From Acetobacter tropicalis (GTDB lineage: Bacteria > Pseudomonadota > Alphaproteobacteria > Acetobacterales > Acetobacteraceae), in the NCBI RefSeq assembly GCF_001580915.1, contig NZ_LHZQ01000222.1, forward strand, positions 62,001 to 126,000: 64,000 bases of DNA. The letters run 5' to 3'. Below are positions 2,950 to 43,661 of this stretch, in pieces (positions within the stretch are counted from its first letter, which is position 1; each line of letters starts with the position of its first letter). The translations under genes were made by a program, and so were the position numbers. The notes beneath the pieces are model-generated. The model was not told the DNA's origin. It made no database searches and saw nothing but the letters and a program-made list of their open reading frames with translations.

Positions 2950-3105
2950 CTCGTCTCCATTCAGACACGTCGCCCCGGAGGGCCCGAAGCGTGCAGGAGC
3001 TCTCTTTATCAGCAGAGCCCGAATTTAATATCCATAAGCTGCTCTGCTGTCAGCGAAAAGAGGGGGCGTGTTTTTCCACTCTTTTCTCAGGCGCGGGCAA
3101 ATTGA

Positions 3106-3600
3106 TCAGGTGGCTTCAACAGTCAGGTCGGCAGTCTGGCCGTTTACGCTGGCAATGGCTTCCTTGGGGGAAAGCCCGACCACAATGCCCCGACCACCAC
3201 CGTTGATGTACATGACATCCTGCTTCAGGGCGGCGTTTTCAAACACAACGGGAACCTGTGTGCGTGCGCCAAATGGGCTGATACCGCCAACCTGAAAGCC
3301 GGTGAGGGCTTCGGCCTTTTCCGCGTTGAGCATGCGGGCATTCTTGCCCCCAAACAGGGCAGCAACCTTTTTGAGGTTCATTTTCTGATGAACGGGAATA
3401 ACCGCACAGACAATCTGCTTTTTATCGATTTCGACCATCAGGGTCTTGAAGACCTTTTCCTGATCAATTCCGATCCCTGCGGCTGCCTGTATGCCAATTT
3501 TACCAGGTTCGGAGACATACTCATAGTCATGCACAGTATAGGCAATACCGTGCGCCGTCAGAAAACGGGTTGAAGGTGTATCAATAGCTGTCTCTGACAT
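3106..3600 (-). CDS. ybaK: Cys-tRNA(Pro) deacylase, YbaK/EbsC family
   Basis: A trans-editing enzyme that hydrolyses cysteine mischarged on tRNA-Pro. The 164 residues are the usual YbaK size and hold one editing domain. Typical segments are FKTLMVEIDKK (~55), the KKVAALFGGKNARML stretch (~78, with the conserved lysine before the Ala pair) and the glycine-rich YINGGGRGIVVGL near residue 135. It is cytoplasmic with no signal sequence. The assignment to Cys-tRNA(Pro) rather than Ala-tRNA(Pro) editing (ProX/INS group) follows the N-terminal TPSTRFL segment and the central motif and is family-based. It appears to be transcribed alone, from the 433-bp gap upstream. Confidence 0.88.
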   Translation of the reverse strand: MSETAIDTPSTRFLTAHGIAYTVHDYEYVSEPGKIGIQAAAGIGIDQEKVFKTLMVEIDKKQIVCAVIPVHQKMNLKKVAALFGGKNARMLNAEKAEALTGFQVGGISPFGARTQVPVVFENAALKQDVMYINGGGRGIVVGLSPKEAIASVNGQTADLTVEAT

Positions 3601-4033
3601 AGCGCAGTCCTTTCAGAATGCTTCGACAGTACGGAACCGTAAAAAATCACGTTTTTCTTATCAGGCGGCGTATCTGGCCCGTCAAGAAAAGAGGTGCGCA
3701 TAGGCATATGCATGGCGTTTTACGGGGTGGTGGGGGCGCTGCTCTTGACGAAGTGTGGAGAGGAATAACAGCCCATAGGATACAAAAAACAGATGTAGAG
3801 AGCGTATGTTCTCAAAATGTTCTTATTTATTGGGCGGCTGGGTAGAGATGATCTGCCACCACGGCTGCGTGTGTCGCTTCCCAAATGAGAACAGACCTGA
3901 AAAGACGAGGACAGTTAAACCGTGTCAGATAGTGAGAGGCTCGAAAAAATAGTTGGTTGTTTCAATCTGATTTTGGGGAGGAGTCTGGTTTGCAGGCGGA
4001 GCGTTGTTCCGCCTGCAACAGAAGGAGAACGCG
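3601..4033. other. Intergenic stretch, no gene seen
   Basis: It lies upstream of ybaK and downstream of mtnA, both on the minus strand. The only structure I see is the hairpin at 3990-4018. Short open frames here have no credible ribosome-binding sites or recognisable products. Confidence 0.6.
3990..4018 (-). terminator. Hairpin downstream of mtnA
   Basis: An 11-bp perfect stem (TTGCAGGCGGA with TCCGCCTGCAA, 7-nt loop) starts 16 bp after the mtnA stop. On the minus strand no T run follows, so termination strength is uncertain. Confidence 0.5.
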
Positions 4034-41298: not shown

Positions 41299-41334
41299 AA
41301 AAGCCGTTTCCTGTCCGTGGAGGAAACGGCTTCT
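41299..41334 (-). terminator. Terminator of the SDR gene
   Basis: On the minus strand AAGCCGTTTCC pairs with GGAAACGGCTT (11 bp) and TTTT completes the tail, 50 bp beyond the SDR stop. Confidence 0.85.
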
Positions 41335-41382
41335 TGCAGGCTTTTAAAGCTGCGTCATCCACGCAAGGGGCAATTTCTCGGA

Positions 41383-42423
41383 TTAGGGGAGGCCCACACC
41401 GCCATTTGCCCCCACAACCTGGCCAGTAAGGTAGCTGCTCTCACTGGATGCCAGCATCACATAGACCGGGGCGAGTTCTACTGGCTGGCCCGGGCGCTTC
41501 ATGGGAACAGTTTCACCAAATTTCTCGACATTTTCCATGGTCTGGCCACCACTGACCTGAAGGGCCGTCCAGAATGGACCGGGTGCTATGGCGTTCACCC
41601 GAATACCTTTTTCAACCAGTTGCTTGGCGAGCCCTTTGGCAAAATTGGAGATGCCTGCCTTTGTAATTGAATAGTCCAGAATATTGACCGAGGGTTCGTA
41701 AGCATTGGTGGAGGAAGTGAAGATCATGGCTGAGCCCGGCTTCATGAGCGGAATGGCCGCTTTGCTGAGCCAGAACAGCGCGTAAAGATTGGTTTTAAGT
41801 GTCCAGTCGAACGCTTCGGTTGTCACATCCAGAATGCTGTCATGTGTTTGTTGGCGTCCGGCACAATTGACGAAAATATCCAGTCCACCAAGCTCTTCTG
41901 CAGCCCGCTTTACCAGATCCTGACAGAATTTTTCATGACGCAGATCCCCGGGCAGTGCGACGAATTTGCGCCCTTCCTTGCGCACCAGTTCTGCCACTTC
42001 TTTGGCGTCCGCTTCTTCTTGCGGCAGATAGTTGATGGCGACATCCGCACCTTCGCGTGCGTAAGCAATGGCTGCGGCGCGGCCTAGACCGGAATCTCCG
42101 CCTGTAATCAGCGCTTTGCGTCCGGCGAGGCGTCCGCTGCCTTTATAGCTCTTTTCCCCGTGGTCTGGCAGTGGCGTCATTTTGGATGCAAGGCCGGGCC
42201 ATTCCTGTGGCTGTGCCTTGAACGGCGCATGTGGATACAGGGAGCGCGGGTCTTCCAGCGGGGTATTGGAGGCGTTGGGCATGGAAGCTCCTGTTTTCTG
42301 GGATGGCGCGGCAGAAGTGGAAAATGGCAAGGATGATGCCCCGGCAGCGGCGGCAATGCCGGCAACTTTAAAAAGGCGGCGGCGCACCGGATCATACTCG
42401 GGGGTATGCGTGTTATCCGTCAT
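41383..42423 (-). CDS. SDR oxidoreductase, YghA-like, with N-terminal Tat-type signal
   Basis: A 346-residue classical SDR similar to E. coli YghA. From the first ATG the N-terminus carries a twin-arginine-like signal (DPVRRRLFKVAGIAAAAGA, ~11-29). The SDR core has TGGDSGLGRAAAIAYAREG (~103; TGxxxGxG), NCAGRQ (~181) and LDYSITKAG (~247; Tyr and Lys). ASP-type substrate specificity is unknown. A second in-frame ATG at 42282 (MPNASNTPL) has AGGAG five bases before it and would give a leaderless ~298-residue enzyme matching YghA. The upstream start also has AGGAG eight bases before it. See findings for the dual-start idea. Confidence 0.85.
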   Translation of the reverse strand: MTDNTHTPEYDPVRRRLFKVAGIAAAAGASSLPFSTSAAPSQKTGASMPNASNTPLEDPRSLYPHAPFKAQPQEWPGLASKMTPLPDHGEKSYKGSGRLAGRKALITGGDSGLGRAAAIAYAREGADVAINYLPQEEADAKEVAELVRKEGRKFVALPGDLRHEKFCQDLVKRAAEELGGLDIFVNCAGRQQTHDSILDVTTEAFDWTLKTNLYALFWLSKAAIPLMKPGSAMIFTSSTNAYEPSVNILDYSITKAGISNFAKGLAKQLVEKGIRVNAIAPGPFWTALQVSGGQTMENVEKFGETVPMKRPGQPVELAPVYVMLASSESSYLTGQVVGANGGVGLP

Positions 42424-42836
42424 GACGACTTCTCCTCTCTGAAAAAGCTGGGGGCAGGCAAGGAGCCAAGAGAGACTGTAAAAGTCTCCATCCCTTAGGC
42501 GGGGCCATGTCTTGTGTAGACAGACGCGGGTGGTGCCAGGAAGTTCCGTTTTTATTGAAAGCAGAGGGGAAGAATATCTGTAATGAATATCGTGTATAAA
42601 TTGAAATAGGGAGCTGGATTATTCTTTAATTTGGCTCGTTCAATGTTATGAGAAACCCAGAAGAAGATAAATAAGTATTCACTCACGCTGCTAGCGATTA
42701 GAAACTGTTGGTGTCTGGTCTCTTTTGCGTTGCGTAATTTAAGAGACAGGACGGAACATGCCTGCGGTGAGCACGGTGGCCGCTCGCAGGTTTTTTTCTG
42801 TTGCTTCGTGCGTGGAGGCTCTGAAAAGCAGGAATG
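42424..42836. other. 413-bp intergenic region, no gene seen
   Basis: It lies upstream of the SDR and downstream of the ferritin-like gene (both minus). AT-rich around 42560-42660, probably the SDR promoter. I see no recognisable gene, RNA or repeat. Confidence 0.55.
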
Positions 42837-43661
42837 CTAAGTGAGCCCCACCATGCGGGCGAATTTCTTCTGGCGGCTGAAAAACAGTTTTTCAGCAACA
42901 TAAAAGGCAAGATCCTGCAATTTGCTGTGCGGGGTCAGGCCGATGGTCTTGAAGATCATGCCCGTTACTCGTTTCAGGTGTTTGGGCTGATAGGTCTTCA
43001 TGGCGCGGGCCATATAGTTGGCAATGCAGCGGTTGTGATCGTAAGGCATGCCCGCCGGTTCATTGGTTGTATGATAGGCGGAGGCGAGTTCATCATCCTC
43101 GCTTTCTGTCACGCGGCCAAGGGCGATGCGGGCGCGCTGTAGCGTACTGATCTTCTCACGCTTCAGATAGCGGTGCATGTGGTCATAAAACAGCTTGAAG
43201 TGGCGGAATTCATCCGCTGCAATCTGTTTGCACAGGGCCTTCAGCACAGGTTCGTCCGTTGCATCCGCCAGCGCCGTATAGAAGGAGGACGTGCCGGTTT
43301 CCACCATGCAGCGCGCAATCAGTTCACCCGTGCGGGAGCCACGGATGGACTGATCAACATCCAACTGAATCTTGTAGAAATCACGGTAGCGCTGGAAGGC
43401 CTCCTGATAGTCCCACTCAGGGTCAGCCAGCATGGCCCAGCGGCCCAGTGCATCCCCATGCTGAATTTCTTCCACGGCCCAATGATCGGCCGCCTGCCGG
43501 AAATCCGGATCATCATAGAACACGTTATTCAGATACTGGGCGTAGTCCACGCTGTTGCGTTCCACAACAGAGGCTGCCTTCACGGCCTTCACCAGTTCAG
43601 GGTCCACCTTGGAGGGATCAAAGCTGTCCCACGGTAACTGATCAATCTGCCAATGTTTCAT
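42837..43661 (-). CDS. Diiron ferritin-like domain protein
   Basis: A 274-residue, alpha-helical protein. The paired iron-binding motifs EEIQHGD (~64; ExxH) and DEFRHFK (~152; ExxRH-like) sit in the right spacing for a four-helix diiron bundle, with Glu in VETGTSSFY (~120) as a further ligand. This pattern is shared by ferritin-like, acyl-ACP desaturase-like and AurF-type oxygenase proteins, so iron-dependent oxidation rather than storage is likely. No signal peptide is seen. It is preceded by a region with a striking palindrome (43839-43865). Substrate is unknown. Confidence 0.75.
   Translation of the reverse strand: MKHWQIDQLPWDSFDPSKVDPELVKAVKAASVVERNSVDYAQYLNNVFYDDPDFRQAADHWAVEEIQHGDALGRWAMLADPEWDYQEAFQRYRDFYKIQLDVDQSIRGSRTGELIARCMVETGTSSFYTALADATDEPVLKALCKQIAADEFRHFKLFYDHMHRYLKREKISTLQRARIALGRVTESEDDELASAYHTTNEPAGMPYDHNRCIANYMARAMKTYQPKHLKRVTGMIFKTIGLTPHSKLQDLAFYVAEKLFFSRQKKFARMVGLT

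Follow-up and report, generated by a model that had tools for sequence, protein, structure and literature searches.

Organization of the SDR locus

The window, that is, the whole stretch of 64,000 nucleotides of Acetobacter tropicalis DNA analysed here, carries an SDR gene for which two in-frame start codons can be proposed, with the features presented in Table 1. The N terminus encoded from the long start, MTDNTHTPEYDPVRRRLFKVAGIAAAAGASSLPFSTSAAPSQ, has what we take to be a typical twin-arginine layout, and the AGGAG-N5-ATG of the gene spans 42292-42280, with ATG 42282 in frame. The coordinates and strand of the open reading frame, both ATGs, the RRRLFKVAG motif and the AGGAG five bases before ATG 42282 were all as the preliminary description had them. 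Its statement that both ribosome-binding sites are strong applies to the long start and has to be lowered for the internal one, since the predicted anti-SD pairing is -9.1 kcal/mol (strong) for the former versus -6.6 kcal/mol (moderate only) for the latter.

Table 1. Features of the SDR gene, in window coordinates.
Feature	Position	Strand	Remarks
SDR gene, long form, Tat-signal precursor	41383..42423	-	346 aa
GAGGAG ribosome-binding site of long start	42432..42437	-	8 nt before ATG, -9.1 kcal/mol
Predicted Tat signal peptide	42307..42423	-	residues 1 to ~39, probable cleavage near SAA
Twin-arginine motif RRRLFKVAG	42358..42384	-	residues 14-22
AGGAG upstream of internal ATG	42288..42292	-	-6.6 kcal/mol; synonymous-resampling p 0.18
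Possible internal ORF from ATG 42282 (M48), signal-less	41383..42282	-	299 aa, candidate start
YghA-type SDR fold	41386..42258	-	residues 56-346; TGGDSG 107-112, N212, S238, Y251, K255

Family, fold and active site

The SDR protein exceeds the Pfam gathering cut-offs of PF13561 (189.4 bits, cut-off 27) and PF00106 (147.7 bits, cut-off 26.6), while its nearest NCBIfam families are PRK06128 and PRK07985, the match beginning at residue 54-56. PRK06128 is still the best family match at 466.2 bits, a score below its equivalog cut-off of 481 bits. The best matches among solved structures are PDB 3r3s, the Salmonella YghA (Z 47.0, rmsd 1.1 over 292 residues, 59% identity), and PDB 5jyd from Burkholderia cenocepacia (Z 47.6, 63% identity). 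With these YghA-type SDRs the fold is shared over residues 55/56-346, and relative to them the Acetobacter protein is extended by about 50 residues and has a Tat signal. The protein expected from the internal ATG is thus of the YghA type, as first proposed, given the PRK06128/PRK07985 match from residue 54-56 and the 59% identity to 3r3s. Membership of the Gfo/Idh/MocA family was considered and rejected, the four Pfam matches all being of the SDR type. The AlphaFold model, made with a 30-row alignment, exhibits a mean pLDDT of 81.9, with much of residues 1-50 at low confidence (below 50 for residues 19-50) and the later part confident.

The active site is highly conserved, with G108, D110, S111, G112, N212, S238, Y251 and K255 identical in all 66 Tat rows and all 35 other rows of the residue-contrast alignment, and within the glycine motif TGGDSG, T107 is kept in 65 of the 66 Tat rows and G109 in 23 of the 35 others. 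Both the glycine motif and the Asn-Ser-Tyr-Lys catalytic residues that define an SDR are therefore present. Over the compared residues 100-346, no cofactor-locking signature was observed that splits Tat from other rows, and only R162, Q335 and P346 passed the contrast, all weakly. The genome holds a single YghA-type SDR gene, its next best SDR being 33% identical, and a 99% identical copy of the gene occurs in A. senegalensis LMG 23690.

Distribution and conservation of the twin-arginine signal

The best ORF was taken from each of 145 loci, some of which represent the same gene from two collections. The Tat class, set by pattern as RR followed by a hydrophobic stretch, comprised 90 of the 145 extracted ORFs, including L157, which on inspection was a false call and was removed by hand from later counts, and 70 Tat-class representatives were retained at <95% identity without L157. 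The tree was built from 102 rows at <93% identity with the signal region excluded (67 Tat, own gene included, and 35 not); L020, L021, L045, L170, rows with a score <700 or a core <240 residues, and copies >93% identical were dropped. The residue-contrast alignment holds 66 of the 67 Tat rows, one row without a candidate start being absent.

The Tat state required 6 changes on the 102-row tree, against a mean of 29.3 for shuffled states. All 67 Tat rows fall within one 80-row side, together with 13 signal-less rows, at a split with weak support (30), and the signal-less L103, L110 and L115 sit within Tat groups. The RR lines up in one column in all 66 Tat-class rows, a count that holds by construction because the class itself was set by RR, so that the informative evidence is the alignment in a single column and the clustering on the tree. 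Alignment A1, with 30 chosen Tat-class rows, likewise showed no variation at R14 and R15. The Tat rows derive from Acetobacteraceae, other Pseudomonadota, and plasmids of Paraburkholderia, Burkholderia, Rhizobium, Azospirillum, Deinococcus, Nostoc and Gloeothece, and the RR with its hydrophobic stretch is kept across Pseudomonadota, Deinococcota and Cyanobacteriota, whereas the surrounding N-terminal sequence is not. The Tat type is not general in the genus Acetobacter, being found in 14 of 49 genomes. Among eight plasmid records, taken from the top of 1500 listed with matches, six are annotated from the signal-bearing start; the remaining two are L085, without a signal, and L086, whose annotated start lies inside the signal. 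In L086 (Azospirillum brasilense, 2971-3924) the signal is in frame and Tat-like, with SRRRMVGGIGSG upstream of the annotated start, and no ATG, GTG or TTG was found in the 45 codons before the RR.

Generic Tat models responded weakly to the signal segment of the window, with TIGR02811 missing its cut-off (E 0.0014, 18.9 of 48.45 bits), TIGR01412 reaching 12.6 of 428 bits and no Pfam match, PF10518 included; seven relatives scanned matched PF10518 or TIGR01409 below cut-off only. The terms 'short-chain' and 'SDR' occur 0 times in the available text of the validated P. aeruginosa Tat-substrate list (PMC6085387). TatC is encoded in the genome (238.9 bits), and a conserved twin-arginine motif stands before the hydrophobic stretch. 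On this comparison, export of the SDR through Tat appears very probable.

Several minor features were observed among the relatives. In several genomes of about 2 Mb, among them G032, G066, G070, G136 and G173, no YghA-like match other than the Tat form was found (limit 1e-60, 7 candidates per genome), with G214 (2.2 Mb) as an exception whose sole YghA-like match, L122, is signal-less. Interrupted-looking frames occur as well: L020 and L021 match only from residue 86, the ORF of L045 loses the N-terminal match, and in L061 (A. persici) a single stop falls within the match.

Conservation of the possible internal start

In 19 rows aligned around the Acetobacter clade, the ATG with GGAG occurs in four (L001, L038, L009 and L040), and the five A. 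persici-like rows (L044 and L051-L054) have an ATG at the site with weak pairing (-3.7); the other ten contain linker ATGs only in L013 (PLMDP, -2.7) and L060 (beyond the DP motif). Three lineages retain GGAG-N5-ATG, namely the A. senegalensis type (L001, L038 and L050), A. cibinongensis (L009 and L039) and A. orientalis (L040 and L056, which are the same gene). Any linker ATG, counted with the linker from RR+16 as in the pairing and resampling counts below, was found in 30 of the 70 Tat representatives, and one pairing at -5 or better in 13 of the 70 (L157 left out of both counts). These 13 are the three Acetobacter lineages plus L028, L029, L034, L092, L098, L099, L100, L147, L152 and L170, and some of their ATGs fall inside the signal. 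Across the orthologues, then, the long start is the conserved one and a second start with its ribosome-binding site is not conserved, so the dual localisation from two starts suggested in the preliminary description is left unsupported.

Counted internal starts were ATG only, and one GTG falls outside these counts: L041 (Gluconacetobacter tumulisoli) has a linker GTG (VAQAAPLADPRG) with AGGAG 3 bases before it and a pairing of -6.2 kcal/mol. Outside Acetobacteraceae, L152 and L170 (family code f8) have AAGGA/AAGGAG before a linker ATG (-5.9 and -9.0, with resampling p of 0.085 and 0.063), and may represent a second place where an internal start is kept.

Strength of the possible internal start and its expectation by chance

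The median pairing is -6.5 kcal/mol for first starts (n=69), against -4.0 for linker ATGs (n=35, including two in L157) and -3.8 for core ATGs (n=349); the value for first starts is flattered, pairing energy having been among the criteria by which they were chosen. Pairing at linker ATGs is better than at other linker codons (p 0.0003), and shows no clear gain over core ATGs (p 0.15). Synonymous resampling with the amino acids kept gave p values of 0.18, 0.19 and 0.15 for the three lineages, so that in none of them was the ribosome-binding site stronger than the encoded amino acids predict. Among 33 linker ATGs, eight reached a resampling p <=0.2, versus 13% of 342 core ATGs (rank test p 0.08).

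The own-genome background, which includes the SDR gene itself and uses starts chosen by a heuristic, covered 397 kb with 258 ORFs and 231 in-frame ATGs at codons 25-75. Pairing at -6.5 or better was observed for 21 of the 231 ATGs and GGAG-N4-8-ATG for three, with at least one of these two features present in 20 of the 258 ORFs; a single internal site of this sort in a 64-kb window is unremarkable by itself. Neither start stands out in mRNA accessibility, and the openness of the internal SD (0.32) does not exceed that seen at core ATGs (mean 0.41, sd 0.18). A scan of 41300-42840 detected no Sigma-70-type promoter within the gene for a short transcript. Given its conservation, its strength, the resampling and the own-genome background, ATG 42282 may be regarded as a possible, unproven second start, and an internal start of any importance is most probably lacking in this gene.

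Relation to cytosolic paralogues

The dual-start idea predicts a link to the presence or absence of a paralogue, since an internal start supplying the cytosolic enzyme would be expected where a cytosolic YghA-like paralogue is absent. A paralogue was taken as any further YghA-like match, Tat or not, under mixed E-value limits (1e-70 for the genus and 1e-60 for the family, where only 7 candidates per genome were scored), the linker was counted from RR+24, and G029 and G116 contributed no rows, since in each the further match is, or resembles, a second copy of the Tat type. Linker ATGs at -5 or better were observed in 5 of 15 rows without a paralogue versus 3 of 47 with one (Fisher p 0.016), and at -6.5 in 4 of 15 versus 1 of 47 (p 0.010). 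With kinship counted, however, only four independent pairs on supported branches remain and the difference is not significant (sign test median p 1), and A. senegalensis G328 carries a paralogue alongside the internal start. The higher frequency of internal starts where no YghA-like paralogue is present is a lead for the dual-start idea.

Proposed mode of export and alternative explanations

Enzymes that depend on NAD(P) normally stay within the cell, and an export signal on one of them is unusual. The locus combines an SDR with an intact active site, a conserved RR signal and a TatC gene in the same genome, all read from the sequence. The reading that we favour by a modest degree is that the gene has one main product, exported through Tat folded around NAD(P), with the internal ATG minor at most. 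Most of the YghA-type SDR would be synthesised as a single long precursor bearing a Tat signal, which would fold in the cytoplasm, take up NAD(P) there and be exported through Tat as a folded protein. In the periplasm, the carried NAD(P) would serve as a non-dissociating group that a second substrate re-oxidises or re-reduces, in the manner of glucose-fructose oxidoreductase (GFOR), and the internal ATG would yield no more than a minor cytosolic form, and this in a few species of Acetobacter. The substrate might, at a guess from the E. coli listing, be an aldehyde or a ketone, E. coli YghA being given as an NADP+-dependent aldehyde reductase in a table within the available part of PMC10100675.

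Precedents for single steps were found in the accessible text of several papers. Tat exports folded proteins, often loaded with a cofactor (PMC5936819, PMC7317946), and according to the title of Halbig 1999, as cited in both, NADP-containing GFOR relies for its export on the RR motif and on the binding of the cofactor. The Zymomonas GFOR and the related Caulobacter CC1225 aldose-aldose oxidoreductase are, like the Acetobacter protein, NAD(P)-type with a Tat signal, as far as the available text of PMC4628093 goes. Both belong to Gfo/Idh/MocA, whereas the Acetobacter protein is an SDR, for which, by analogy, a carried cofactor has about an even chance. No paper on a Tat-exported YghA-type SDR or its internal start, and no localisation or proteomic data, turned up in the open-access literature searched, and the tables of released proteins of Asaia bogorensis, in the accessible part of PMC12502724, give several SDR or oxidoreductase names, none linkable to the SDR gene.

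Cytosolic enzyme could also arise by incomplete export, if the long precursor were active before cleavage and part of it stayed behind. The Zymomonas GFOR shows activity whether or not it carries its signal (PMC4628093, citing Loos 1993, in the text available), and the Tat-class rows share their active site with signal-less relatives; we nonetheless consider this explanation unlikely. A second way to the same outcome is that the two starts give an exported and a cytosolic enzyme, the internal start replacing a missing cytosolic YghA-like paralogue. An M48 start would lose no part of the enzyme because the fold begins at about residue 56, GGAG-N5-ATG recurs in A. senegalensis-like, A. cibinongensis and A. 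orientalis genes despite their differing linkers, and the comparisons with other linker codons and with paralogue-less rows point the same way. Salmonella PagC and OmpX offer a parallel, with N-terminal proteoforms from an in-frame second start that removes the signal peptide (PMC11005335, in its accessible text), where the pairs were found by ribosome profiling, whereas the Acetobacter start is proposed from its sequence. Against this stand the 4 of 19 Acetobacter-clade rows with GGAG and ATG, the resampling results, the lack of a clear difference from core ATGs in pairing or resampling rank, the four independent pairs, the A. senegalensis genome that keeps both internal start and paralogue, and an SD no more open than those of core ATGs, which together leave the two-start explanation quite unlikely.

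It is very unlikely that the Tat pathway makes no use of the signal-like N terminus (failed or Sec-type), leaving the SDR cytosolic or otherwise placed. The Tat profile scores below cut-off and the 13 signal-less rows on the Tat side of the tree, including the three within Tat groups, are consistent with such a loss of use, but the RR and hydrophobic stretch are kept across three phyla, unlike the N terminus around them. Of the original proposal, the Tat-exported SDR gained from the wide RR signal and the intact SDR active site, and the two-start dual localisation found no support in the conservation of the internal start or the strength of its ribosome-binding site. If the exported SDR preferred here is indeed broadly conserved, redox reactions in the periplasm that run on a carried nicotinamide would be more common than the handful of GFOR-like cases implies. 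The broader combination, in which Tat-signal YghA-type SDRs would be widespread unnamed periplasmic nicotinoproteins and an internal start would supply the cytosolic enzyme in paralogue-less Acetobacter, is highly doubtful.

Gene neighbourhood and upstream regions

The SDR gene seems to stand alone, without a conserved partner gene, as no neighbour cluster was present in more than 8 of 76 loci when flanking ORFs were compared, mostly within 1.5 kb flanks and with the same gene represented twice at some loci. The 274-aa protein encoded upstream (window 42837-43661, minus strand) exhibits weak FA_desaturase_2 and rubrerythrin matches, and a relative lies upstream of the SDR gene in L009 (A. cibinongensis) as well as in L054, and at a greater distance in L044 (A. 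persici). An EcfG-type promoter before the SDR gene was sought and is not supported, there being no strict match and only a loose GGAAC-N16-CGTC. The strict pattern (GGAAC-N15-18-[CG]GTT) was found in 2 of 70 Tat rows (expected 0.5) and in 5 of 37 signal-less rows, namely L171, L173, L174, L122 and L166 (expected 0.2), with expectations from a block shuffle of single bases, and the signal-less relatives may thus have a closer tie to the general stress response than the exported forms have.
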